Positions 1-20,202 of a DNA stretch of 20,317 bases are shown here, piece by piece. Positions within the stretch are counted from its first letter, which is position 1, and each line of letters begins with the position of its first letter. This DNA comes from a virus, in the IMG/VR virus record IMGVR_UViG_3300050015_000226, positions 1-20,317 of that record; one strand, given 5' to 3'. Both the position numbers and the translations under genes were made by a program. The notes under the pieces are model-generated. The model was not told the DNA's origin and did no database searches. It worked only from the letters and a program-made list of their open reading frames with translations.

Positions 1-2
1 CT

Positions 3-527
3 TTAGATCCAGATCCTGATGATATTGATATCATGGATATAGCACATGCATTAAGTAATTCTTGCCGATGGACTGGGCATGTATCTCAATTTTATTCTGT
101 GGCACAACATTGTGTCCTAGTGAGTCAAAATTGTAAACCAGAAAATGCTTTAGGTGGTCTTTTACATGATGCGACAGAAGCATATTTATCAGATATTTCA
201 CGACCAGTTAAATATTCGGAGAAGATGGATGGATATAGAGATATTGAAGCTAATTTAGAAAAGGTAATTTCCGAGAAATATAATCTACCATATCCAATGA
301 CTATTGATGTTAAAAAAGCTGATGATGATTTACTGTTGAGTGAAGCATTTACATTTTTTCGTCCTGTTCCTGAGTGGGCTAGTAATCGCATTAAAGATTT
401 AGGTTTAGAAAAGCCTTCTATTGTAATAGATGGTGGATACCAACCTGCTATTGCTAAAGGATTATTCTTGAGAAGATTTTTTGAATTAAATGGAGTTAAT
501 ATAAGTGCCAAGACCGAAGAAAATTAA
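3..527 (+). CDS. HD-domain phosphohydrolase, YfbR-like (5' end cut by window)
   Basis: The reading frame is open to the window edge, so the ATG at 33 is internal. The residues encoded before it (LDPDPDDIDI) match the N-terminal lead-in of YfbR-type HD proteins, which precedes the 'IAHALS..CR..GH' signature seen here. The metal-binding set is visible: a His in 'FYSVAQHCVLVS', the HD pair in 'GLLHDATEAYL', and a downstream Asp in 'KKADDDLLLSEA'. Family members are metal-dependent nucleotidases or phosphohydrolases acting on deoxynucleoside monophosphates. In a phage this fits nucleotide-pool control alongside the deaminase and reductase further on (inference). The end overlaps the next gene by 23 bases, suggesting translational coupling. 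Family assignment is fairly sure; the exact substrate cannot be read. Confidence 0.85.
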   Translation, partial: LDPDPDDIDIMDIAHALSNSCRWTGHVSQFYSVAQHCVLVSQNCKPENALGGLLHDATEAYLSDISRPVKYSEKMDGYRDIEANLEKVISEKYNLPYPMTIDVKKADDDLLLSEAFTFFRPVPEWASNRIKDLGLEKPSIVIDGGYQPAIAKGLFLRRFFELNGVNISAKTEEN

Positions 528-1566
528 AGCTGAGAAGAACCAAAGAGTTAAGAAGGAAAAGAAACCAAAACAAGAAGGAAATATATCTTTTTTCCAAAAG
601 TTAGTAAAGGCGACCGGAAATGAATTAGCTAAAGCGGCGTCTAATGGAATTGTATCTGGTGACATACACGGATGGATTGATACTGGTGTTTATATTTTAA
701 ATGCTCAATTATCAGGATCATTATTTGGTGGTATTCCAGATAATAAGATTGTAGTATTTGCTGGTCCGGAAGCAACAGGAAAAACATTTTTTATTTTGAG
801 TGTATTGAAGTTTTTCTTAAAATGTAATCCTACAGGTGCGGCATTTCTATTTGAAAGTGAAAGTGCCATATCCAGAGATATGTTAGTAGAACGTGGAATT
901 GATGTTACTCGTGTATTCGTTGTTCCTGTTTCTACCATTCAAGAATGGAAAACACAATCTCTTAAAGTACTTAGAGGATATAAAGATGATGGTGAAAATA
1001 GACCTCCAATGATGTTTATTTTGGATTCATTGGGAATGTTATCTACTAATAAGGAAATGGAAGATTCAGAATCTGGAAGTGACAAAGCAGATATGACACG
1101 TACCAGATTAATTAAAGCGGCATTCAGAACACTAACATTAAAATTAGGTGTTCTTGGTGTTCCATTTTTAATCACAAACCATACATATGAAACTCAAGGT
1201 ATGTTTGCCACAAAAGTAATGTCAGGTGGATGTTTAATAAAAGGAACAAAAATTATTACTTCAACAGACGGAAAAACAAAAAATATAGATGAAATGTGTA
1301 TAGGTGATAAGGTACAGACGTTATTTGGCGAAAAAAATGTCACCAACACTTTTAATTTTAATGATAAGGATATTTTCAAAATTAACTTAGAAGATGGTAA
1401 CATTATTGAATGTTCAGGAAATCACAAATTTCTTGTAAATGGTAAATGGGTTGATGTTTATACTTTATTTGATGACCTGAAAGTGAACCAAAATATAAAT
1501 GTTTCCGATATCAAAACAGGAGATATTGATGTTTTTAGACAACAAATACAGGAAAATTTATTATAA
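505..1566 (+). CDS. uvsX-N: UvsX recombinase N-terminal piece fused to split-intein N-half
   Basis: Starts at GTG 505 with GGAG at 492-495. Residues 1-242 are the front of a T4 UvsX/RecA-type strand-exchange ATPase: a Lys-rich tail (about 1-24), Walker A GPEATGKT (87-94), Walker B MMFILDSLG (169-177) and the UvsX signature DMTR....FR then NHTYETQ.MF ending KVMSGG (237-242). T4 UvsX continues from this point with Gly/Thr-Gly-x-x-Tyr-x-x-(Asp/Asn); here the next residue is Cys243 and intein sequence begins. Block A (CLIKGTKI) is at 243-250 and block B (CSGNHKFL) at 303-310. The last 20 or so residues are an unassigned tail. The recombinase C-terminal piece is a separate gene at 1622, so the product should be active only after protein trans-splicing. 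It filaments on ssDNA in recombination-dependent replication (family knowledge). Confidence 0.93.
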   Translation: MPRPKKIKAEKNQRVKKEKKPKQEGNISFFQKLVKATGNELAKAASNGIVSGDIHGWIDTGVYILNAQLSGSLFGGIPDNKIVVFAGPEATGKTFFILSVLKFFLKCNPTGAAFLFESESAISRDMLVERGIDVTRVFVVPVSTIQEWKTQSLKVLRGYKDDGENRPPMMFILDSLGMLSTNKEMEDSESGSDKADMTRTRLIKAAFRTLTLKLGVLGVPFLITNHTYETQGMFATKVMSGGCLIKGTKIITSTDGKTKNIDEMCIGDKVQTLFGEKNVTNTFNFNDKDIFKINLEDGNIIECSGNHKFLVNGKWVDVYTLFDDLKVNQNINVSDIKTGDIDVFRQQIQENLL

Positions 1567-1726
1567 AATTATATACCGTATCTTTGGGAAAAATACAATA
1601 TAAAAAATATTTGGAGTTTAAATGAAAATCTTGACGATAGAAAAAATTAATTCAAAACCAGTTTACGATATAGAAGTTGAGGATGTTGGTCATTATATTT
1701 TAGAAAATGGAATTATCTCCCATAAT
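1231..1726 (+). mobile_element. Split intein in UvsX (Int-N 1231-1566, Int-C 1622-1726)
   Basis: Int-N starts at Cys (codon 1231-1233) directly after SGG and is 111 residues long. Int-C is 35 residues from the ATG at 1622 to His-Asn at 1721-1726, followed by Ser (+1 nucleophile) of the extein sequence SGVKYANS. The halves sum to a mini-intein size of about 146 residues with no endonuclease domain. A 55-base spacer separates the halves. The C-half has its own GGAG at 1613-1616 and its own ATG, which argues for genuine separate translation rather than a sequencing frameshift. Splicing competence is inferred from intact Cys1, block B His, C-terminal His-Asn and +1 Ser. Confidence 0.9.
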
Positions 1727-2149
1727 TCTGGAGTTAAATATGCAAATTCAATGACTGTTTTCTTAGGTAAGTCCAAAGAAAAAGAAGGTGATGAAGTTGT
1801 TGGATCGTTACTTCGTAGTGTGTTGAAAAAGGGCAGATTAACACGTGAGAATACGCAAGTAGAAATGAAATTATATTATGATAAAGGTTTGGATAGATAT
1901 TATGGTTTATTAGAATTAGCTATAGAATATGGTATCGCTACTAAGGCAAAAGACAAAGAAAAAGGATACCGTATCGGTGGCCAAGTTGCATCTGAGAAGG
2001 TAATTTATAGTAATCCTGAAAAGTATTTTACTGAGGAAGTAATGAAAGAATTAGAAGTCGCCGCAGGCAAGAAATTTAAGTATGGTAGTGCCGTAACAAT
2101 TTCTCCTGAAGATCTTTTAGATGGTGAGGAAATAGAAACTGATGAATAG
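1622..2149 (+). CDS. uvsX-C: Split-intein C-half fused to UvsX C-terminal piece
   Basis: Residues 1-35 are an intein C-half with block F/G residues (YDIEVED.GHYILENGIISHN). Residue 36 (Ser) begins the UvsX C-terminal extein of 140 residues. Its start SGVKYANSMTVFLGK aligns with the T4 UvsX sequence just after the conserved GG, and 'YYGLLELAIEYGIATK' matches the UvsX C-terminal core. The joined host protein would be 242 + 140 = 382 residues, close to T4 UvsX (391), so nothing of the recombinase is missing. The Shine-Dalgarno GGAG lies 5 bases before the ATG. The C-terminus is acidic (EDLLDGEEIETDE), as in UvsX. The stop overlaps the next start by 8 bases. It would act only after trans-splicing with the product of the gene at 505. 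Confidence 0.93.
   Translation: MKILTIEKINSKPVYDIEVEDVGHYILENGIISHNSGVKYANSMTVFLGKSKEKEGDEVVGSLLRSVLKKGRLTRENTQVEMKLYYDKGLDRYYGLLELAIEYGIATKAKDKEKGYRIGGQVASEKVIYSNPEKYFTEEVMKELEVAAGKKFKYGSAVTISPEDLLDGEEIETDE
1692..1710 (+). repeat. 19-bp direct repeat, copy 1 (Int-C of UvsX)
   Basis: ATTATATTTTAGAAAATGG occurs here and identically at 17397-17415, inside the C-half of the first NrdJ intein. Both encode (H/N)YILENG. Protein constraint explains part of the match, but perfect synonymous identity over 19 bases suggests recent common ancestry of the two Int-C segments or gene conversion. Confidence 0.85.
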
Positions 2150-2471
2150 TGGAAGAATACTACCATTAGGTTATTATACTCAGAATGAAGCAAATCCACA
2201 CCTTATACGGATTGACCAAGGTCCGTATAAGGGTCTTTCAATTCAAATTTCTGAAGATATTAAAATTAGAGAAGATGCATTGACATCCAACCCTAATCTA
2301 TTGTATAATTATAGAATACTTCATTATGCAGATTTAAACCCCCGCGAATGTGAGTCTTCAGTACAATTGTCAAGAATTATTGGTGCCATTGCGGTAGAAT
2401 TATTATATGACGAAATCCAAAATGGTGGAATAATAGAAAGTGTACCGTGTCGGAATCTAGGATCGAAATAA
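2142..2471 (+). CDS. Small protein in the gene 40 position (unknown function)
   Basis: A 109-residue soluble protein whose ATG overlaps the uvsX-C stop by 8 bases and whose end overlaps the helicase start. I do not recognise a domain. The visible features are 'LIRIDQGPYKGLSIQISEDIKI' near residues 21-42, a mixed alpha/beta composition, no signal peptide and no transmembrane segment. In T4 the gene between uvsX and 41 is gene 40 (114 residues, linked to head-vertex assembly). This gene has the same position and nearly the same size, so it is the positional counterpart, but I cannot claim sequence homology. Tight overlaps on both sides imply co-translation with recombinase and helicase. Confidence 0.75.
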   Translation: MNSGRILPLGYYTQNEANPHLIRIDQGPYKGLSIQISEDIKIREDALTSNPNLLYNYRILHYADLNPRECESSVQLSRIIGAIAVELLYDEIQNGGIIESVPCRNLGSK

Positions 2472-3904
2472 TCATTTTAAAGAATTTATTTCATAATGAA
2501 GATTTTACGAGAAAGGTTTCTCCTTATCTTAAAGAGGAATATTTCCGTAATGAAGAAAAGATTATTTTCCAACATTCAGCTAAATTTCTTTCCGAGTATA
2601 ATAAATTACCTACAGTATCTAGTATAGCCGTTTCTATAGATGGTGATAAAAAAATAAGTGAAGACACTTACAAGGAAGTTTTAGTTGCATTAGAGAAATT
2701 GGAAACCAATGAAGTTGTTGATTTGGAATGGTTAGTTAATAAAACCGAAGATTTTTGTAAAGACCAAGCACTGGCAAATGCCGCATTCAAAGCTGTTAAT
2801 ATTTTAGAAGGTAATGATAAGAAATTAGATAAGGGAGCAATTCCACAAATATTTGAAGATGCTCTTTCCATTTCATTTGATGCATCTATTGGTCATAATT
2901 ATTTTGATGATGCTGAATACCGCTTTGATAAGTTACATGCTGTTGAATATAAGTTGCCATTTGATATTGATATTTGTAATAAAGTAACAAAAGGTGGTGT
3001 GGCTGCTAAGACTTTAAACCTAATTGCCGGCGGCGTTTATATTGGTAAGACATTGGCACTATGTCATTTAGCAAAGTCTTACATGTGTGCTGGTAAAAAT
3101 CCGTTATTCATAGCATTAGAAATTAGTGAAGAGAATATTGCATTACGTGTTGATTGTAATCTTTTAGATATATCCATTGATACTGTGGATAGTATTCCAA
3201 AAGATGTTTTCATGAAGCGCGTAGAAAAGGTAAGAGAAAGAACTACAGGTAAATTAGTAGTAAAGGAATATCCTGCTGGTTCAGTTCATGTAAATAATTT
3301 TAGAGCATTGTTACATGAATTGCGATTAAAAAAGAATTTTGTACCAGATGTTATATTGGTAGATTATTTGAATCTTATGGCGTCTTGTAGAGTTAAAGCT
3401 AGTGACAAAACATATATTACTATATTGGCAATTGCTGAGGAATTAAGAGCACTAGCACAAGAATTTGGAATACCTATTTGGTCAGCCACACAATTGAATG
3501 CTGAAGGGATGGAAAGTTCTGATCCCGGTATGACAGATATTTCAGGATCCAAAGTTGGATTGGCAGCTACTTGTGATTTATTGTGGATGATTGTCAGTAG
3601 TGATAAATTACGCCAATTAGGACAACTATTAGTAATACAACATAAAAATCGTTATAAGGATGCCTCCGATCATAAGAAGTTTTATATTGGTTTAGATCGT
3701 AAGAAGTTCCGGTGGTTTAATGTGGAGCAAAAGGGACAGACCGAACCGGATCCTTTAGATCAAGAAGATGAAGAGGCAAATATTAAAGCTGCCGTAAGTA
3801 AGAAATATGGAACAGAAGCGTATCAATCTGGTTATAAACAAACACAATTAGCAAAGAAATTTGGTCCAAGAGGAAAACCATCATTTAAAGATTTTACTGT
3901 ATAA
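2447..3904 (+). CDS. 41: Replicative DNA helicase, T4 gp41 / DnaB type
   Basis: A 485-residue RecA-fold hexameric helicase, close to T4 gp41 (475). The N-terminal domain pattern 'IEIIILKNLFHNEDFTRKV.PYL..EYF' matches gp41. Walker A GGVYIGKT is at 195-202, followed by the gp41-like 'ALCHLAK'. The acidic 'ALEISEE' is at 223-229, and Walker B DVILVDYLNLM is at 301-311. The start is GTG 2447, inside the preceding gene; there is no earlier ATG that keeps the N-terminal motif and only a weak purine-rich sequence upstream. It unwinds the fork 5'-3' and pairs with the primase at 13766 (family knowledge). The reading frame is uninterrupted, unlike gp41 genes broken by split inteins reported from marine metagenomes. 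Confidence 0.93.
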   Translation: MSESRIEIIILKNLFHNEDFTRKVSPYLKEEYFRNEEKIIFQHSAKFLSEYNKLPTVSSIAVSIDGDKKISEDTYKEVLVALEKLETNEVVDLEWLVNKTEDFCKDQALANAAFKAVNILEGNDKKLDKGAIPQIFEDALSISFDASIGHNYFDDAEYRFDKLHAVEYKLPFDIDICNKVTKGGVAAKTLNLIAGGVYIGKTLALCHLAKSYMCAGKNPLFIALEISEENIALRVDCNLLDISIDTVDSIPKDVFMKRVEKVRERTTGKLVVKEYPAGSVHVNNFRALLHELRLKKNFVPDVILVDYLNLMASCRVKASDKTYITILAIAEELRALAQEFGIPIWSATQLNAEGMESSDPGMTDISGSKVGLAATCDLLWMIVSSDKLRQLGQLLVIQHKNRYKDASDHKKFYIGLDRKKFRWFNVEQKGQTEPDPLDQEDEEANIKAAVSKKYGTEAYQSGYKQTQLAKKFGPRGKPSFKDFTV

Positions 3905-3905
3905 A

Positions 3906-3913
3906 GATAAATA
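3906..3913 (+). promoter_or_regulatory. T4-late-like promoter motif GATAAATA (weak candidate)
   Basis: Matches 7 of 8 bases of the T4 late promoter TATAAATA and lies between the helicase stop and the ATG at 3920. Only 6 bases separate motif and ATG, so a transcript from it would have almost no leader. Confidence 0.25.
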
Positions 3914-3919
3914 TGGTAT

Positions 3920-4900
3920 ATGTCTACTCTATCTGTACCGGCTCTTAAATCCATTATTGTTGGGTTAGGTTATCCTGAGATACAAAATGTTAATACTACT
4001 ACTTTTAATGTGTTCGTAAAAACACCAAAAGAAGTATTAGCCGTACCACCAATTATTTTTAGAGCTATTAAGCCTTTTGAACCGAAATTTGTTTCTTCCA
4101 ATAAGAAGCCATATAATAATCCAGAAGATTCGTATATTGAAGTTGGTAATTTAAAAGTATACGTTAAGCATCAGAAGAATAAAAAGATCCCTAAAAAATT
4201 AACTCTTGGAAGAAATAATGAACAGAATTTTTATATTATAATAAAAGAACATCTAAAGATATATGAAAAATTCAATATAGAATTTCAAGAAAATGGCGGA
4301 ACACAATTTTTGGTAAAAGATGTTGTAAATGTTGTGAAGACTGGTAAGAATATTAAAGACCGTAAAAAAGGTGACATTAATTTAGTAACGTCAACTCATA
4401 GGAAGATTCCGATATCATTGAAACAATCTGATGCTCCTTATTGGGAAACTCCAGATACATATTGGGGTGAAACTGCAAAGAATGTTTTAGAATATGCCCT
4501 TGCAAAAGGTAAGATAAATTTAGTACCATATAATAATGTTTATCGTTTGAGTAATGAAATTGCAATTATGGCAACAAAGGAAGAAGCGCACGATTTGATT
4601 TTTGGAAATGATATTTATGGACAAGGAGCAATAATCAAACAGACTTGGAATTATGGATATGTTAGATGGGACGATGCATTTAAGACTTTGTTTTTACAAT
4701 GTAAATCGGTTATTCTAGAAGTAGAAGATGTTCCACCTGAAGATAAACCATATTTTCAGATTAGAAATCATAAAGACAAGAACTCAAAGTATTTATATCC
4801 AGGTTTGATGTTACTAGCAGTACGAAAAGAATTAACTAAAAAGAATCAGATACTTCCAGAAGAAGCACGTCCATACCAAGAATGGAAAAAGGTTATATGA
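3920..4900 (+). CDS. Putative PD-(D/E)XK nuclease-like protein (unknown phage family)
   Basis: A 326-residue soluble protein. The best functional hint is 'KGDINLVTST...KIPISLKQSDA': Asp152 followed 14-16 residues later by Ser166-Leu-Lys168. This reproduces the D...(D/E/S)xK core of PD-(D/E)XK nucleases, where a metal-binding Asp precedes a beta strand ending in x-x-K. An upstream Glu110 in a helix-like stretch could be the additional acidic residue. No helicase or methylase motifs are present. It starts 15 bases after the helicase stop with no strong Shine-Dalgarno. The core helicase neighbourhood suggests a role in DNA processing or attack on host or competitor DNA (inference). The fold is inferred from one motif, so confidence in function is low, but the gene itself is secure. 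Confidence 0.65.
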   Translation: MSTLSVPALKSIIVGLGYPEIQNVNTTTFNVFVKTPKEVLAVPPIIFRAIKPFEPKFVSSNKKPYNNPEDSYIEVGNLKVYVKHQKNKKIPKKLTLGRNNEQNFYIIIKEHLKIYEKFNIEFQENGGTQFLVKDVVNVVKTGKNIKDRKKGDINLVTSTHRKIPISLKQSDAPYWETPDTYWGETAKNVLEYALAKGKINLVPYNNVYRLSNEIAIMATKEEAHDLIFGNDIYGQGAIIKQTWNYGYVRWDDAFKTLFLQCKSVILEVEDVPPEDKPYFQIRNHKDKNSKYLYPGLMLLAVRKELTKKNQILPEEARPYQEWKKVI

Positions 4901-4956
4901 AAATCTTTCGCTGGAACAGTTACAAAGAATTAAAATTACATAAATGAAATATTTTG

Positions 4957-4965
4957 TGTTATAAT
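4957..4965 (+). promoter_or_regulatory. Extended -10 promoter TGTTATAAT before deaminase
   Basis: TGnTATAAT is a perfect extended -10 (TATAAT at 4960-4965). The -35 is poor (ATTACA at 4935-4940, 19-base spacer). The predicted start of transcription falls at about 4972, which is the ATG itself, and no Shine-Dalgarno is present. The stretch 4957-4973 is nearly identical to 13746-13762 (15 of 17 bases). Confidence 0.5.
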
Positions 4966-4971
4966 TATATT

Positions 4972-5379
4972 ATGCGACATGATAGATTTTTGAATACTAC
5001 ATTCCAGATTGCTAAAGAAGTACCTAGAGCCTCTGATAATAAAATTGCGGCATTGGTAGTTTGTAAGAACAATATAATTTCTGTTGGTATGAACCAAATG
5101 AAAACTCATCCGATGGTTGCATCCTGTAAACAAAATGAGTGGTCGGAATATCTTCATGCGGAATCTAGTGCAATTATAAATGCACTTCGCCAGATTAGTT
5201 CCTCTAAATTGGCAAAATGTACCTTGTATATTTGTAGAGCAAAAATATCGGGAGTGGTAGGTAATTACGTGTGGGGTATGTGTAAACCGTGCCCGACTTG
5301 TAGGAAATTCATAGAAAATTATCCAGTGAATAGTTGTTATTATACTGTAGAGAATGGAGTATACGAAAAGCTTGAGTGA
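4972..5379 (+). CDS. cd: Deoxycytidylate deaminase-like zinc deaminase
   Basis: A 135-residue protein from ATG 4972. The zinc and catalytic signature is complete: HAE at 62-64 ('YLHAESSAIINAL') and PCPTC at 106-110 ('MCKPCPTCRKFI'). The family converts dCMP to dUMP, feeding dTMP synthesis. It belongs with the HD phosphohydrolase and ribonucleotide reductase as phage nucleotide-supply functions. An upstream in-frame TTG at 4954 would add six residues, but it lies within the candidate promoter and has no family support, so I use the ATG. The 70 bases before it hold an extended -10 promoter. The gene is short compared with T4 Cd (193), and other CMP/dCMP-family deaminases remain possible. Confidence 0.85.
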   Translation: MRHDRFLNTTFQIAKEVPRASDNKIAALVVCKNNIISVGMNQMKTHPMVASCKQNEWSEYLHAESSAIINALRQISSSKLAKCTLYICRAKISGVVGNYVWGMCKPCPTCRKFIENYPVNSCYYTVENGVYEKLE

Positions 5380-6079
5380 AAGAAAAACAAAAAATTGCAT
5401 TACCCAATTGGCCGGATCAAGTAATAGCAAGCAACATCCCAGCAGAACCCAGCAAACGTGGTTAAAGAAACAGACAAAGTTAATTTTAGAAGATAAAAAG
5501 CATACCGAAAAACATTGTGCTGAATATGATTTATATGTTCAGGATAATAACCTCGATATAGAACAAATCAAAAATCCCTATTTCTCCAACCGTTTAAATG
5601 AATTTGAGAGATCTATTTTTTCCAATCTAACATTAGGTAGTGGTGGTGGCGGTGGTCCCGATACTCGTGAAGGATATGAGATCAAACATGCCAACTATAA
5701 TGGATTAAATCAAAGGACAAATAAATTGAATCAAATTACATTTTGGTTTAATACGGTTAAATATGAAACATGGGAACAACAAAAAGAATATCTGACAGAT
5801 CATTTAGATTCCATTACAGGACTAAAGATTGCTATTAGATGTCCTAATGGTGAATATTTAAATTTGAAATCTGATATGGATTTAGCAACTTCTGATATAT
5901 TAATGCAGAATGCCAAACAACGGTATGATGCCATTGGTAGAGGTATATTGGATAGTAAAATGAGAACTACAATCAATACAACTGAATTATTATCAATTGA
6001 AAATTTTAAATTAGAAAAAGGTAATAATTTAACAATCGCAAAGAAGTATCTTGGAGAAACATACCACGATGTTATTTAA
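5354..6079 (+). CDS. Unknown phage protein with Gly-rich hinge
   Basis: A 241-residue protein overlapping the deaminase end by 26 bases. An alternative TTG start at 5372 would give an 8-base overlap and also has GGAG upstream (5356-5359). The N-terminal 70 residues are basic and polar. A run GSGGGGGPDTREGYEIKHA sits at about residues 95-113. 'PD......EIK' in that run superficially resembles a PD-(D/E)XK active site, but the spacing of six residues is too short to be convincing. The C-terminal half looks alpha/beta and ends 'KKYLGETYHDVI'. No signal peptide or membrane segment. I do not recognise the family. Its overlap with the deaminase suggests it is made from the same transcript. Confidence 0.6.
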   Translation: MEYTKSLSERKTKNCITQLAGSSNSKQHPSRTQQTWLKKQTKLILEDKKHTEKHCAEYDLYVQDNNLDIEQIKNPYFSNRLNEFERSIFSNLTLGSGGGGGPDTREGYEIKHANYNGLNQRTNKLNQITFWFNTVKYETWEQQKEYLTDHLDSITGLKIAIRCPNGEYLNLKSDMDLATSDILMQNAKQRYDAIGRGILDSKMRTTINTTELLSIENFKLEKGNNLTIAKKYLGETYHDVI

Positions 6080-14786: not shown

Positions 14787-16064
14787 GTGAACCGAACAGC
14801 TAAGATTATTTGTGATTCTATTAGTCCTGTAAGAACAAAAAACGTCGAGCCAGAATTGCTGTCAATGAATGGAAAAATGTTAATACTTCTATTTTTTTTA
14901 TTTCAAATCAATATATCACGAGTAATTTATCCTACCGATTATAATACCTTTGTACCACCCAATGTCTTGGATTCATATAAAGATCCAAATTTTCATACAA
15001 CAATTAAACGTATTACGGATGCTATCAACACTCATAATGCTACCGATGATGATAATTTATCCTGGATTGAAAATGAATATTCAACTATCAATTCTTTCAA
15101 TTGTGATAGTTCGGAATTTATTTTGATACATGAAAGTTATTTTGGTCTTTATGATATTTCTGGAACCTTTCTAGGAAATCTTCCAATGGAAATAAATTCA
15201 TCAAGTGAGCCAAGGTGGTCTAAAACCAATAATGCATTGATATATTATCATTATGGTAATCAGTTTAGAACATATAATCTATTGAGTAAAATGATTTCTA
15301 CCTTACACACATTCACACAATTTACAACTGTGAATGGTACAGGAGAATCGGATATATCCAAAGACGGCAATCATTTTGTATTTGTAGGAGATAACCAAAA
15401 TATATTTGTATATCAATTGGATAATGACCACATTTATGACATTTGGCATACAGATGAACCATTAGATAGTGTTTATATTACTCCTGATAATAATGTGCTG
15501 GTTAGTTGGATTCAATCTGGAACAACAAGATATACAGGAGAAGAATTATTTGATATCAATATGAATTTTCTCCGACAGATAGCTCATTCTGATGGACACA
15601 AAGATATCACGCGAGATATAAATGGTAATGAAGTTTTGATTTGGGAAAATTCTAATGATCCTTTTCCTATACCAAATTGTCAAAATGGTATTGTAAGAAT
15701 TAGATTGTATGACGGTCTACAAACTTGTTTGCTCCAATTAGATTGGAGTTTAGCGGTTCATATATCAGCACCGGATAATAATGATATGGTATATATTGAT
15801 ACTGAATCTCCAAGTAATCCAGAACCCGGTGAATATTGGGCGAAATATACAAATGAAATTTTGTGTTTATCTCTGGATGGAAAAAGAATAGCGCATATTG
15901 CTTTTCACCGGAGCAGGCCAATAAATAGTTACAATTGGCAACCAAAAGTTTCTTGTAATAATGATGGAACAAAATTATTGTTTTCCAGTAATTTTGATTT
16001 GAATGTAATAGAAAATTATCCGAAAGAATATTCGGATACTTATTTGATAAATTTTAGAATGTGA
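14787..16064 (+). CDS. Beta-propeller protein with N-terminal hydrophobic segment (moron-like)
   Basis: 425 residues from GTG 14787. ATGs at 14865 and 14877 would start just before the hydrophobic run LILLFFLFQI (residues about 32-41), which could be a signal peptide or anchor. The rest is a repeated four-strand pattern typical of TolB/WD-like propellers: 'RWSKTNNALIYYHY', 'DISKDGNHFVFVGD', 'ITPDNNVLVSWI', 'VSCNNDGTKLLFSSNF'. An N-terminal 'DPNFHTTIKRITDA' resembles a family of bacterial and metagenomic secreted propellers. No catalytic residues are assignable. It sits between primase and reductase, where no core T4 gene is expected, so I infer an acquired gene. Polysaccharide binding or a surface role is plausible. 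There is no promoter that I can see; it is probably read through from the primase. Confidence 0.7.
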   Translation: MNRTAKIICDSISPVRTKNVEPELLSMNGKMLILLFFLFQINISRVIYPTDYNTFVPPNVLDSYKDPNFHTTIKRITDAINTHNATDDDNLSWIENEYSTINSFNCDSSEFILIHESYFGLYDISGTFLGNLPMEINSSSEPRWSKTNNALIYYHYGNQFRTYNLLSKMISTLHTFTQFTTVNGTGESDISKDGNHFVFVGDNQNIFVYQLDNDHIYDIWHTDEPLDSVYITPDNNVLVSWIQSGTTRYTGEELFDINMNFLRQIAHSDGHKDITRDINGNEVLIWENSNDPFPIPNCQNGIVRIRLYDGLQTCLLQLDWSLAVHISAPDNNDMVYIDTESPSNPEPGEYWAKYTNEILCLSLDGKRIAHIAFHRSRPINSYNWQPKVSCNNDGTKLLFSSNFDLNVIENYPKEYSDTYLINFRM

Positions 16065-16080
16065 AATAAAAGAAGGATAA

Positions 16081-17337
16081 ATGCTCCCTACCAGTTACCA
16101 AAATTATATACATCTTTCCCGTTACGCCCGTTGGAGAGATGATTTACAGAGAAGAGAAACGTGGGAAGAAACAATACAGAGATATTTTGATTTTTTTATA
16201 AAAAGAATACCTGATAATGAAAATGTACTTAATAAATTCAATGATGTTAAAAAAGCAGTTTTAAACTTAGAAGTTATGCCTTCTATGCGTGCGGTTATGA
16301 CCGCTGGAGAGGCATTAGAAAAAGATAATTGTGCCGGGTATAATTGCGCCTTCGTAGCGATTGATAAGCCACATACCTTTGATGAAATTATGTATATTTT
16401 AATGTGTTTTCATCCTAATACAAAAATTCAAACTAAAAATGGACCCAAAAGAATTTCAGAAATAACAAAAGAAGATTTGGTACTATCCTTTGATGGTGAA
16501 AAATTTTTATATAAGAATCCAGATAAAATTATTTGTAATCCCACTTCCAAAGAAGAAAAATTGCAATTAACTTTTGATGATGGTAGTATAATATGTTGTA
16601 CAAAAACCCATAAATTTTTTACTAAAAATAGGGGTGAGGTTAAAGCTATAGATTTAAATGAAACTGATGAGTTGTTAGAAAATCCATATAAATTTATAGT
16701 ATATAAAATTACTAATAAAATTAATGGAAAAGTGTATATAGGATATACATCTAAATCTATACAAAAAAGATTCCAAGAACATATTAATTGGGCTAAAAGT
16801 AATAAAAAATTACAATTAATTCATAAATCTATTAATAAATATGGTAAAGAAAATTTTAAAATTGAACCTTTAATTATTTGTTATGATTTTGATACGGCTT
16901 TAGAAAAAGAAAAATATTATATACAAAAATATAATTCTTATTTTAAAGGAGGATTTGGTTATAACATGACATATGGTGGTGAAGGATCTTTTGGATATAA
17001 ATGGTCCAAAAAACAAAAAGAATATGCCCATAATCATGCTTATGTAAGAACAAAAAAACATAAAGAAAACCAAAAAAATATTTTAAGAAAAAATTTTGAA
17101 AAAATTAATAAAACACGACAAACCAAAAAATATAAAGAAGAACAACGAATTCGTAATTTAGGAGAAAAAAATCCCAGATATGGTAAAAAACATACAATAA
17201 AATGGAAAAAAGAAATGTCTTTAAGAAATTCAGGTAAAAATAATCCATTTTATCATAAAAAACATACCTCGGAAACAATTAATAAAATAAAAGAAACCAA
17301 AAGAAAAAATCAGGAATTAAAAAATGCGATTAATTAA
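16081..17337 (+). CDS. nrdJ-N: NrdJ N-terminal piece + split-intein N-half + GIY-YIG endonuclease
   Basis: Starts at ATG 16081 with AAGGA 3 bases before. Residues 1-108 are the front of a class II ribonucleotide reductase: 'MPSMRAVMTAGEAL', 'NCAGYNCAFVAID' (the Cys of NCAF corresponds to the N-terminal redox Cys) and 'FDEIMYILM'. Intein begins at Cys109 (16405): block A 'CFHPNTKIQT', block B 'CCTKTHKFF' (172-180). From about 203 a GIY-YIG nuclease follows: 'VYKITNKINGKVYIGYT' (207-223), Arg230, the Glu of 'EKYYI' (277-281), and 'GYNMTYGGEG' (293-302). It is followed by NUMOD3-like DNA-binding motifs ('GEKNPRYGKKHT', 'GKNNPFYHKKHT'). So one polypeptide carries extein, Int-N and homing nuclease. 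The gene overlaps the next by 14 bases. Confidence 0.92.
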   Translation: MLPTSYQNYIHLSRYARWRDDLQRRETWEETIQRYFDFFIKRIPDNENVLNKFNDVKKAVLNLEVMPSMRAVMTAGEALEKDNCAGYNCAFVAIDKPHTFDEIMYILMCFHPNTKIQTKNGPKRISEITKEDLVLSFDGEKFLYKNPDKIICNPTSKEEKLQLTFDDGSIICCTKTHKFFTKNRGEVKAIDLNETDELLENPYKFIVYKITNKINGKVYIGYTSKSIQKRFQEHINWAKSNKKLQLIHKSINKYGKENFKIEPLIICYDFDTALEKEKYYIQKYNSYFKGGFGYNMTYGGEGSFGYKWSKKQKEYAHNHAYVRTKKHKENQKNILRKNFEKINKTRQTKKYKEEQRIRNLGEKNPRYGKKHTIKWKKEMSLRNSGKNNPFYHKKHTSETINKIKETKRKNQELKNAIN

Positions 17338-17431
17338 AAAAGAAAACATTAAAGATAATTTAAATTATTATGATCTTTCTATTCCTGAAACACATAATTA
17401 TATTTTAGAAAATGGTATAATAGTTCATAAT
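16405..17431 (+). mobile_element. Split intein 1 in NrdJ, with fused GIY-YIG endonuclease
   Basis: Int-N begins at Cys (16405-16407) after ILM. Int-C is 36 residues (17324-17431) ending HN, with +1 Cys of CGTGVGFSVE. The halves overlap: the N-gene stop (17335-17337) lies 14 bases inside the C-gene, in a different frame (+1). AGGA at 17312-17315, 8 bases before the C-half ATG, supports separate translation. The insertion lies in the highly conserved GTGVGFS loop of the reductase. The homing nuclease (about residues 203-410 of the N-gene) is attached to the N-half. Confidence 0.9.
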
Positions 17432-18862
17432 TGTGGTACAGGCGTTGGATTTTCAGTAGAAAAGAAATATGTTAACCAATTACCTACTATTAATTCAAAG
17501 ATGTACAGTACTAATACAACTATTGTAGTGGAAGATAGTAAAATTGGTTGGGCATCGTCATATCGTGAAATGCTTGCGTTATTATGGACCGGAAAGATTC
17601 CTAAGTGGGATGTAAGTAAGATACGTCCGGCTGGTGCGCGATTAATAACTTTTGGTGGTAGAGCATCTGGACCAGAACCTCTAGAAGGATTATTTAAGTT
17701 TACTGTAGCTTTATTTAAGAATGCAGCCGGAAGAAAATTAACTACATTAGAGTGCCATGACTTGGTCTGTAAGATTGCTGATATTGTGGTTGTAGGTGGT
17801 GTTCGTAGAAGTGCATTAATTTCCTTATCTGATTTAGAAGATCTCCGAATGCGGGATGCTAAATCTGGTGAATGGTGGAAAACAAACGGGCAAAGAAGAC
17901 TTGCTAATAATAGTGCCGTATATACCGAAAAACCTCCAATTGGTGTTTTTATGGATGAATGGCTTTCAGTATTTAAAAGTAATTCAGGTGAACGTGGTAT
18001 CATTAATCAAGTGGCGAGTACAAAACAAGCTGGTAAGAATGGAAGAAGAAAAATACAAAATGAGGATAAAACAATTATTAGTTTTGGTACAAACCCATGT
18101 GGTGAAATTATATTACGTAATAGTGAGCATTGCAACCTTTCAGAAGTTATTATCCGACCTGATGATACATTTGAAACCCTATCAGCAAAAGTAATAAATG
18201 CCACAATTTTAGGAACGTTACAATCTACATTAACTGATTTCCGTTATCTTTCTGATGATTGGGAAAAGAATACAAAAGAGGAACATCTATTAGGAGTATC
18301 CTTAACTGGTATCATGGAGCATCCATTCTTTTCTGGTAAATCAAAGATAATGTATGATGCACCGAATACATGTTACGGAAAACAATCTAGTGGTTTTGAT
18401 GATCCTACAGAATGTAAATTACCTGAAGTTCTCCAAGCATTAAAACAAATAGCAATTGATACTAATAAATTATGGGCAGAAACATTAGGAATCAATTCTT
18501 CAGTTGCTATCACATGTATTAAACCTAGCGGTTGTGTATCTTTAGATACTCGTATCAAATCTAATGTTGGTTTAATCTCAATGTTAGGATTGTTTACATT
18601 ATGTGGATATGAATATGAAACTTTAATAAACTATCCAAACGATACTTGGTTGGAATTAAATAAAAATATTAGTGTGTGGGATGAAAACAATAAAGAACAA
18701 CAGATAACAAAATTATATATCAATGGATTTCAAGAATTATTTGAACTGGAATTTGAAGATGGAAATCTTTATAAATTTACCGGTAACCACAAATTAAAAA
18801 CCAACGATGGATTTAAAAGAGTTGATGAATTAACTATCGATGATGAAATAATTTCATTTTAA
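17324..18862 (+). CDS. nrdJ-M: Int-C half + NrdJ catalytic middle + second Int-N half
   Basis: Residues 1-36 are the C-half of intein 1. Residues 37-403 (367) are the catalytic middle of the reductase: 'CGTGVGFSVEKKY', 'PAGARLITFGGRASGPEPL', 'GGVRRSALISL', 'NNSAVY', 'TNPCGEI......EHCNL' (the Cys pair that holds the thiyl radical and a redox Cys in class II enzymes), 'VSLTGIMEHPFF' and 'AITCIKPSG'. At Cys404 (18533) intein 2 begins: 'CVSLDTRI', block B 'TGNHKLKT', ending 'DELTIDDEIISF' at the stop. This one polypeptide has intein halves at both ends, so it must be spliced on both sides. Class II identity means adenosylcobalamin-dependent with no separate small subunit. Shine-Dalgarno AGGA is at 17312. 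Confidence 0.92.
   Translation: MRLIKKENIKDNLNYYDLSIPETHNYILENGIIVHNCGTGVGFSVEKKYVNQLPTINSKMYSTNTTIVVEDSKIGWASSYREMLALLWTGKIPKWDVSKIRPAGARLITFGGRASGPEPLEGLFKFTVALFKNAAGRKLTTLECHDLVCKIADIVVVGGVRRSALISLSDLEDLRMRDAKSGEWWKTNGQRRLANNSAVYTEKPPIGVFMDEWLSVFKSNSGERGIINQVASTKQAGKNGRRKIQNEDKTIISFGTNPCGEIILRNSEHCNLSEVIIRPDDTFETLSAKVINATILGTLQSTLTDFRYLSDDWEKNTKEEHLLGVSLTGIMEHPFFSGKSKIMYDAPNTCYGKQSSGFDDPTECKLPEVLQALKQIAIDTNKLWAETLGINSSVAITCIKPSGCVSLDTRIKSNVGLISMLGLFTLCGYEYETLINYPNDTWLELNKNISVWDENNKEQQITKLYINGFQELFELEFEDGNLYKFTGNHKLKTNDGFKRVDELTIDDEIISF
17397..17415 (+). repeat. 19-bp direct repeat, copy 2 (Int-C of NrdJ intein 1)
   Basis: Identical to 1692-1710 (ATTATATTTTAGAAAATGG). It encodes NYILENG in the intein C-half. 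Confidence 0.85.
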
Positions 18863-18873
18863 AGTACTAATTG

Positions 18874-18907
18874 TACCTCTAGGTTTAACTAAATAGATTT
18901 AGAGGTA
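18874..18907 (+). promoter_or_regulatory. Hairpin sequestering the HNH ribosome-binding site
   Basis: TACCTCTA (18874-18881) pairs with TAGAGGTA (18900-18907). Six further inner pairs (three of them G-U) extend the stem to 14 bp, with loop 18888-18893. The right arm contains AGAGGT, the Shine-Dalgarno 7-8 bases before the TTG start at 18914. Read-through transcripts should therefore hide the ribosome site. Confidence 0.7.
18889..18895 (+). promoter_or_regulatory. Late-type promoter motif CTAAATA in hairpin loop region
   Basis: ACTAAATAG (18888-18896) sits in the loop and inner stem of the hairpin. A transcript starting a few bases downstream (about 18900) would lack the left arm, freeing the ribosome-binding site. 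T4 late box is TATAAATA; the match is 6 of 8, and identical to the motif at 7801-7809. Confidence 0.5.
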
Positions 18908-18913
18908 TATATT

Positions 18914-19549
18914 TTGAAAACTGCTAGAAGATTATATGAATATATTCACGGAAAAGTACCAGAACAAATGGAAGTTCATCACATAATACCTGTACATGCC
19001 GGTGGAGAAACTGTAATAGAAAATTTAGTTGCTTTAACCAAAAGAGACCATAAATTGGAACATTTATTTCGTTACGTGAAATATGGTAACTTTAGAGATT
19101 TATGTTCTTACTTTATGATCGATTATAATTTTACCGAAGCACATAAAATTTCATCTTCAATTGGTGGTAAAATAGGTGGAAATAAAGTTAAAAATTTAGA
19201 AGTTGGAATATGTACCAAAGATACGGAAAAAAGAAAAACTTGGGCTAGTATGGGTGGTAAAATAGGTGGAAAAGTCCAAGCAGAAAGAGGAGAAGGTTTT
19301 CACCAATTTCACCATTTTGATAAAACTAAACATCTTGAAATATGTTCTGCTGGTGGAAAGGCTAGTCCGGTTTTTAAAGATCCTAAAAGACAAAGTGAGT
19401 TTGGAAAAATCGGAGGACCTAAAAATAAAGGTTTTATTTGGTATACAGATGGTATTAAAATGTACAAGTATACAAAGGTAGAACAAGAAAACCTCTCCTT
19501 TGAGAACTTTTTGAAAAATAATAAACAATTTAAAAAAGGTAGGAAATGA
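18914..19549 (+). CDS. HNH homing endonuclease in the NrdJ split-intein gap
   Basis: A 211-residue protein from TTG 18914 with AGAGGT upstream. The HNH core is clear: 'MEVHHIIPVHAGGETVIENLVALTKRDHKLEH', with His22-His23 metal/catalytic, Asn37, and His46 and His50. Then come repeated 'IGGKIGG' motifs (about 83-117) and a C-terminal 'FIWYTDGIKMYKYTKVEQEN', a DNA-recognition-type tail also seen in phage HNH enzymes. It would cut an uninterrupted nrdJ allele near KPSG/TVSQ and promote copying of the split intein (inference from location). It is free-standing rather than fused to either intein half. The end overlaps the C-half start by 4 bases. Expression is probably late and gated by the upstream hairpin. 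Confidence 0.9.
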   Translation: MKTARRLYEYIHGKVPEQMEVHHIIPVHAGGETVIENLVALTKRDHKLEHLFRYVKYGNFRDLCSYFMIDYNFTEAHKISSSIGGKIGGNKVKNLEVGICTKDTEKRKTWASMGGKIGGKVQAERGEGFHQFHHFDKTKHLEICSAGGKASPVFKDPKRQSEFGKIGGPKNKGFIWYTDGIKMYKYTKVEQENLSFENFLKNNKQFKKGRK

Positions 19550-20202
19550 AATTAAAATCCATCAAAAAAGTTGATCCAGAAATTACAGTAGATATAGAAA
19601 CGGAAAATACACACACATATCAATTGTCAAATGGTATTGTTTCTCATAATACAGTTTCACAATTAGTTAATTCATCTAGTGGAATTCATCCTAGATATTC
19701 ATCATATTTTATCCGTAGAGTCCGTGCAGATAAGAAAGATCCAGTTTCTAAATTGATGCGGGACTCTGGAGTTCCTGTTGAAGATGATATTACAAGTCCT
19801 CAACAAACTGATGTATTTTCCTTCCCGATTAAATCTCCTGATAATGCCATTTTACGTGATGATATGTCTGCATTAGATCAATTAAGATTGGCAATGATTT
19901 ATCAAAAGAATTGGTGTGAACATAAACCTTCAGTTACAATTTATGTAAAAGAACATGAATGGTTAGATGTTGGTGCATATGTATATAAAAATTTCGATGA
20001 TATCAATGGGGTAACATTCCTTCCATTTGATAATGGAACATATAGGCAGGCGCCCTATGAAGAAATTACAAAGGAACAATATGAAACTTTAATTAAACAA
20101 ATGCCTACAGTTGATTGGAGTTTAATTAGTAAATATGAAACTGACGATCAAACTACAAATTCTAAAGAATTAGCTTGTAGTTCCGGGCATTGTGATTTAT
20201 AA
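19546..20202 (+). CDS. nrdJ-C: Int-C half + NrdJ C-terminal piece
   Basis: Residues 1-35 are the C-half of intein 2 ('DIETENTHTYQLSNGIVSHN'). Thr36 opens the C-terminal reductase extein of 183 residues: 'TVSQLVNSSSGIHPRYSSYFIRRVR' continues the KPSG motif of the middle piece exactly as in unbroken class II enzymes. The tail 'LACSSGHCDL' is the C-terminal CX4C redox pair that re-reduces the active site. The full reductase would be 108 + 367 + 183 = 658 residues, so all parts are present. Start ATG is embedded in the HNH stop (ATGA) with AGGA at 19541-19544 close by. It needs trans-splicing with nrdJ-M to work. Confidence 0.93.
   Translation: MKLKSIKKVDPEITVDIETENTHTYQLSNGIVSHNTVSQLVNSSSGIHPRYSSYFIRRVRADKKDPVSKLMRDSGVPVEDDITSPQQTDVFSFPIKSPDNAILRDDMSALDQLRLAMIYQKNWCEHKPSVTIYVKEHEWLDVGAYVYKNFDDINGVTFLPFDNGTYRQAPYEEITKEQYETLIKQMPTVDWSLISKYETDDQTTNSKELACSSGHCDL

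Follow-up and report, generated by a model that had tools for sequence, protein, structure and literature searches.

Can one enzyme be produced from three separately translated polypeptides through two protein trans-splicing reactions? This question is raised by the nrdJ locus of the IMG/VR virus record IMGVR_UViG_3300050015_000226, which is from an uncultured phage. The complete record, 20,317 bases in length, was analyzed and is called the window here. In the window, nrdJ consists of three open reading frames (ORFs) on the same strand (+), at positions 16081-17337, 17324-18862, and 19546-20202, which encode successive portions of a single ribonucleotide reductase (RNR), of class II and RTPR type. 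It is very likely that this nrdJ is twice fractured by two non-allelic split inteins associated with homing endonucleases, that these inteins are probably orthogonal, and that one enzyme is made via two trans-splicing reactions. We infer the splicing, the orthogonality, and the homing.

Three consecutive parts of one enzyme

The initial annotation had described a class II NrdJ encoded by three genes, whose exteins constitute a complete enzyme of 658 residues with all expected Cys motifs. This description holds in all its parts. On PHROG 367, a profile of phage RNR, pieces 1, 2, and 3 cover positions 33-136, 136-523, and 520-695 in succession. When the pieces are cut at the intein motifs, the exteins are 108, 367, and 183 aa long, 658 aa in total, and the extein junctions, LM|CGTGVG (site 1) and KPSG|TVSQL (site 2), show neither gap nor overlap. 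The joined NrdJ was aligned with one relative interrupted only at site 2 and with six intein-free phage NrdJ proteins, and it is gapless at both junctions. Its match to intein-free phage NrdJ is full-length.

TIGR02505 covers piece 2 at positions 174-521 and piece 3 at positions 517-722. The joined exteins score 317.6 bits against a cut-off of 340, and two intein-free phage relatives score 327 and 312; thus, the phage branch as such falls just short of this cut-off. Lactobacillus RTPR (1l1l) aligns with the joined NrdJ at E=2e-48.

The catalytic residues are distributed over all three pieces. The N-extein in piece 1 (residues 1-108; 16081-16404) ends with YILM and holds C89, which corresponds to C119 of RTPR in both the 1l1l alignment and the phage alignment. 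The middle extein in piece 2 (367 aa, residues 109-475; 17432-18532; TIGR02505 E=2.2e-48) holds C331 (C408 of RTPR), E333, and C342, the last being assigned to C419 by its 11-residue spacing from C331. The C-extein in piece 3 (183 aa, residues 476-658; 19651-20199) holds the tail pair C651/C656 (CxxxxC). All these residues are kept in about 150 aligned relatives. We take them to have the catalytic roles of the matching RTPR residues, with C342 as the redox Cys. C109 was also considered as the redox Cys and was ruled out, since the 1l1l alignment places C119 at C89. A single NrdJ piece alone should have no activity.

Pieces 1 and 2 share 14 nt, with AGGA upstream of the start of piece 2, and piece 3 overlaps an upstream nuclease gene by ATGA. 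A ribosome-binding-like sequence precedes every start, and the genes are overlapping or almost abutting, suggesting translational coupling.

Split inteins and nucleases at the two breaks

At site 1, the N-terminal intein half (IntN1; 16405-16689, its end being approximate) follows the N-extein in piece 1. It has Cys1 and TKTH in block B, and matches TIGR01445 with 30.7 bits, above the cut-off. A GIY-YIG nuclease domain is fused in frame behind it (16693-16938; PF01541 E=2e-11, TIGR01453 E=7.8e-24), followed by NUMOD3 DNA-binding motifs (PF07460, best stretch at 17206-17289). IntN1 and the nuclease together are 310 aa, and when they were used as a query, matches were to the nuclease domain only. 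The C-terminal half (IntC1; 36 aa, 17324-17431) is at the front of piece 2. It ends with IIVHN, its +1 residue is Cys109, and its TIGR01443 score of 34.1 bits exceeds the cut-off.

At site 2, IntN2 (109 aa, 18533-18859, with the stop codon at 18860-18862) is at the end of piece 2. It has Cys1 and TGNH in block B, and matches inteins in PDB as well as PF14890, the latter at E=2.0e-6, below the curated cut-off. IntC2 (35 aa, 19546-19650) is at the front of piece 3, ends with IVSHN, has Thr476 at +1, and matches TIGR01443 with 21.9 bits, above the cut-off. Between the two halves is a free-standing gene for an HNH homing-type endonuclease (18914-19549, TTG start; PF01844 E=1.8e-8). Thus the nuclease at site 2 is a separate gene inside the split intein, while that at site 1 is fused to IntN1. 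Both nucleases, with the NUMOD3 motifs, are additions to the initial annotation. That annotation had placed an intein C-half in front of the middle piece and an N-half at its end, and had proposed a check with intein and class II RNR profiles; the profile matches above agree with it.

Both sites show the marks of class 1 split inteins: Cys1 and TxxH in IntN, and HN followed by Cys or Thr at +1. Cys1, TxxH, and HN are kept in every NrdJ intein compared, across sites and phages. The joined intein halves match inteins of solved structure, such as NpuDnaE and DnaB, with E about 1e-6. At both sites the halves are on separate polypeptides with their own stops and starts, and this is conserved in relatives. 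Within the window, sites 1 and 2 are 21% identical in IntN and 37% identical in IntC.

Recurrence of the breaks in relatives

The break at site 1 (17324-17337) adjoins an A-run, and alone it could be explained by a one-base error. An IMG/VR scan with the pattern HN|CGTGVGF revealed five contigs (L119, L120, L121, L122, and L123). In all five the site-1 intein is split, in differing registers, and a GIY-YIG nuclease is present. L119, L120, and L123 share the nuclease-IntN fusion of the window, with ATGA or TAATG as the overlap between their two ORFs; L121 and L122 encode the nuclease in an ORF of its own. A looser pattern added two NrdJ contigs, L130 and L196, whose 5' side is cut or unclear. 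The site-1 IntC|extein pattern had no match in GTDB genomes.

The 108-kb contig L123 repeats the whole three-piece layout (986-2170, 2167-3642, an HNH gene, and 4420-5076), with exteins 54-65% identical to those of the window. The split NrdJ is the sole place in L123 matched by the large RNR subunit family.

The nearest relative, with 75% identity in NrdJ, is represented by four records from different samples (L014, L015, L022, and L023). Site 2 is split in them, with an HNH gene 69% identical to that of the window. Site 1 is empty in the three of these records that reach it. The break at site 2 is also seen in many further contigs. The same splits in relatives, the differing registers, and the separate nuclease gene exclude an assembly error in practice at 17324-17337 and at 18863-19546, the two breaks for which the initial annotation had named this possibility.

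Scans of IMG/VR with HN|TVSQLV[DN] and VHN|SEIILR detected 36 and 40 contigs, respectively. Five intein sites, either split or cis, were observed in phage NrdJ: before C89, before C109, after C331 (NPC|SEI), before C342, and at KPSG|T. Three-piece NrdJ is seen in several combinations of sites. The window and L123 combine site 1 with site 2, and L121 combines site 1 with the NPC site, which is the site of the intein NrdJ-1. L145 (a complete gene with two intervening nuclease-like genes) and L169 (with its 5' side cut) combine the NPC site with site 2. Among the best matches listed for the pieces in cultured phages (1188 records with NrdJ), no such intein half was found; CRP-118 and RHph_N3_13, which have two-part RNR matches, were left aside.

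L130, a 6.4-kb contig cut at its 5' end, has IntC1 at its edge; its NPC site and its site 2 are both split, and C342 is preceded by a cis intein. Its NrdJ is in at least three pieces. There is about an even chance that it is made from four polypeptides by three trans-splicing reactions and one cis-splicing reaction, with three orthogonal split inteins in one protein. The cis intein of L130, at 1939-2922, is directly before C342, between the split NPC and split site-2 inteins; one at the same position is also present in L171. Behind nrdJ in L130, the stretch 5028-5866 holds a GIY-YIG-like gene together with an ORF of 74 aa in which the C-terminal end of NrdJ is repeated, perhaps as recombination debris. 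L122 (225-5058) has three inteins in two pieces: a cis intein before C89, the split one at site 1, and, at site 2, a large cis intein.

Proposed mechanism and alternative explanations

Three proteins with matching halves of two inteins would need two separate joining reactions. The class 1 inteins at site 1 (LM|C109) and site 2 (KPSG|T476) of this B12-dependent RTPR-type enzyme are naturally split, and the translation products would be NrdJ(1-108)-IntN1-GIY-YIG, IntC1-NrdJ(109-475)-IntN2, and IntC2-NrdJ(476-658). IntN1 would pair with IntC1, with Cys at +1, and IntN2 with IntC2, with Thr at +1. Each pair would fold into a Hint domain and ligate its flanks, in either order, yielding the 658-aa enzyme and releasing both inteins, the first with its nuclease still attached. 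Nothing in the sequence or in relatives fixes the order of the two reactions. As the middle piece has the order IntC1-extein-IntN2, cross-pairing would cyclize it, and orthogonality is therefore expected. The GIY-YIG nuclease at site 1 and the HNH nuclease at site 2 may cut intein-free nrdJ of co-infecting phages, by which the insertions would spread. We infer trans-splicing at this locus from the motifs and from the precedent of NrdJ-1, whose family includes the NPC intein of L121 (8ubs, E=9.5e-29). Two trans-splicing events, as proposed in the initial annotation, are supported by the motifs at both breaks, the exact joins, the layout of L123, the variants L121, L145, and L169, and a ratio of nonsynonymous to synonymous substitution rates (dN/dS) well below 1 in most of the parts for which it was estimable.

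Several observations weigh against this proposal. The IntC halves of sites 1 and 2 match each other by up to 57%, so that orthogonality is not proven. IntN2 of the window and L014, which are 51% identical, show a dN/dS of 0.59, and many dS values are saturated; selection on IntN2 is thus not firmly shown. For IntC1, the dN/dS between the window and L123 is 0.33, which makes selection on this half less certain as well. The AlphaFold model of piece 1 is poor (pLDDT 56) and was set aside. The site-1 junction of the window itself is in one assembly, the overlapping record L212 covering positions 1-3919 only.

Other explanations were weighed against the same data. The three pieces might fold into a working enzyme non-covalently. 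Every piece spans a discrete stretch of the enzyme, and a phage RNR split by a homing nuclease gene is reported to work as two peptides (cited in PMC10448857). This is nevertheless unlikely: at both breaks the intein halves are complete and conserved and retain every catalytic residue, a state that an unligated complex would not preserve, and the splits adjoin invariant residues. Decay, in which inactive intein relics remain in a gene no longer needed, has a possible parallel in the nrdA of a Campylobacter phage, which carries two inteins and for which degeneration has been suggested (PMC3653736), and the dN/dS of IntN2 points the same way. The exteins, however, retain all catalytic residues and have dN/dS values of 0.03-0.2, the reading frames are open in relatives, and the RNR match in L123 is limited to the split gene, all of which make decay very unlikely.

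A continuous gene with cis-inteins could have been broken by indels in sequencing or assembly, and a single indel at the A-run could fuse the frames of pieces 1 and 2. Such an error would have to recur at site 1 in five contigs with their different registers and overlaps, and would not account for the nuclease gene with its own start at site 2 in many contigs; it is thus highly improbable. It is hardly conceivable that the pieces are joined at the RNA or ribosome level, by group I introns or programmed frameshifting. GIY-YIG nucleases are frequent in phage introns, and the best match of the piece 1 nuclease is a group I intron endonuclease model. On the other hand, an Rfam search detected neither a group I intron nor any other Rfam family in the window, the stops and starts are inside the intein halves, the HNH gene stands between the two halves at site 2, and a -1 shift at the A-run misses the frame of piece 2. 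No reading other than three polypeptides with two split inteins fits the sequence and the relatives alike.

Comparison with known systems

Precedents exist for fractured genes with split inteins, NrdJ among them, for a GIY-YIG nuclease located at such a break, for phage RNR genes with repeated interruptions, and for engineered multi-piece assembly. The fractured genes of Dassa et al. 2009 are reportedly broken in two. They share with the window a phage gene for DNA metabolism, a split intein, and a nuclease at the break. Site 2 fits this type, whereas the window has one gene broken twice, and its site-1 nuclease is fused to IntN instead of being free-standing. Two nrdJ cases are cited among the hosts of fractured genes in PMC3653736.

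NrdJ-1 is a proven fast trans-splicer with the native junction NPC/SEI (PMC13123727; PDB 8ubs). Like the inteins of the window, it is split and interrupts an enzyme of this kind, and its NPC|SEI site is filled in L121, L145, L130, and L169. The window has its two inteins elsewhere (LM|C and KPSG|T), and they match NrdJ-1 only weakly. In AceL NrdHF (PMC7891396), an intein likewise splits a phage-like RNR gene, and a GIY-YIG nuclease is located at that break, but the intein is of class 3, the gene is for the RNR beta subunit, and there are two pieces with an intervening nuclease. In orthogonal split-intein assembly (PMC7090010), one chain is made from three or more pieces with at least two inteins, as here; that system is engineered, whereas the window is natural. 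Two other phage RNR genes are interrupted more than once like that of the window. The nrdA of Campylobacter phage IBB_35 has two putative inteins, and the nrdE of Brochothrix phage A9 is in four ORFs, the interruptions being described as three introns and an intein-encoded nuclease (PMC3653736). Neither is described there as having two trans-acting split inteins. In the open-licence literature, no natural case was found in which two trans-splicing events build a protein from three pieces translated separately, the loci of Dassa et al. 2009 being outside the comparison.

The recurrence in several phage lineages, at three or more sites and in several combinations, provides natural experiments on how nucleases can break important genes repeatedly without destroying them. 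The same recurrent NrdJ splits can inform how often split inteins re-fuse, and they yield groups of split inteins that have to function next to each other within a single protein. With an IntC-extein-IntN middle piece that would cyclize itself upon cross-talk, such sets test orthogonality in nature and offer matched pairs to protein engineering.

Evolution of the NrdJ inteins

In a tree of 64 NrdJ sequences, whose bootstrap values had not settled, the intein states were corrected by hand; automatic calling of sites overlooked several splits, as the alignments extended across the junctions. The window pairs with L014, which is split only at site 2. L123 and L145 share a clade with the intein-free L068 and with L157, which is interrupted only at site 2. 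L121 and L169 are placed elsewhere. The placement of the window beside L014 and of L123 beside L068 indicates that the double split arose more than once. On this tree, multiple splitting of phage NrdJ is estimated to have arisen several times.

Inteins cluster by insertion site, not by phage genome. Between L145 and L130, the DNA of the NPC intein and both nucleases is 86-97% identical, and that of the exteins is 70-74% identical. The transfer of the mobile parts therefore postdates the divergence of the genes, in line with recent homing. Where dS was estimable, dN/dS was 0.00-0.26 for the exteins, IntC2, the NPC-site halves, and the nucleases.

Three states of site 2 were observed: split with a nuclease in most contigs, split with a gap too short for a nuclease (L140 and L143), and a fused mini-intein (L132, L139, L154, and L156). 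The fused alleles belong to a site-2 intein that is usually split, and fission looks reversible. The natural fused allele of intein 2 in L132 has a predicted Hint fold, and the 50 Foldseek matches listed for it are inteins or intein-like domains. At the NPC site, splits with long and short gaps have near-identical halves (L193/L174 and L168/L182). In these pairs, the split intein seems to remain stable once its nuclease is lost.

The nuclease at site 2 looks GIY-YIG-like in L169 (reverse strand, 2478-3188) and is HNH in the window, and the two have similar tails of glycine-rich repeats. An exchange of the catalytic head seems to have taken place.

Other features of the window

A third split intein is in the UvsX/RecA gene, on the + strand. 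Piece 1 (505-1566; PHROG 97, TIGR01445) consists of a 242-aa N-extein and a 111-aa IntN, and piece 2 (1622-2149; TIGR01443 32.6 bits) of a 35-aa IntC and a 140-aa C-extein. The break, VMSGG|C...HN|SGVKYAN, has a 55-bp gap and lacks a nuclease, and piece 2 has a ribosome-binding site of its own. The same split is present in L212 with 100% identical DNA, and L213 (69%) matches as one stretch without an intein. The C-terminal part matches positions 1-111 of PHROG 18112, which suggests that other phages may have the same split. Directly upstream of nrdJ, at 14787-16064, there is a 425-aa ORF with a beta-propeller-like look and no PHROG match.
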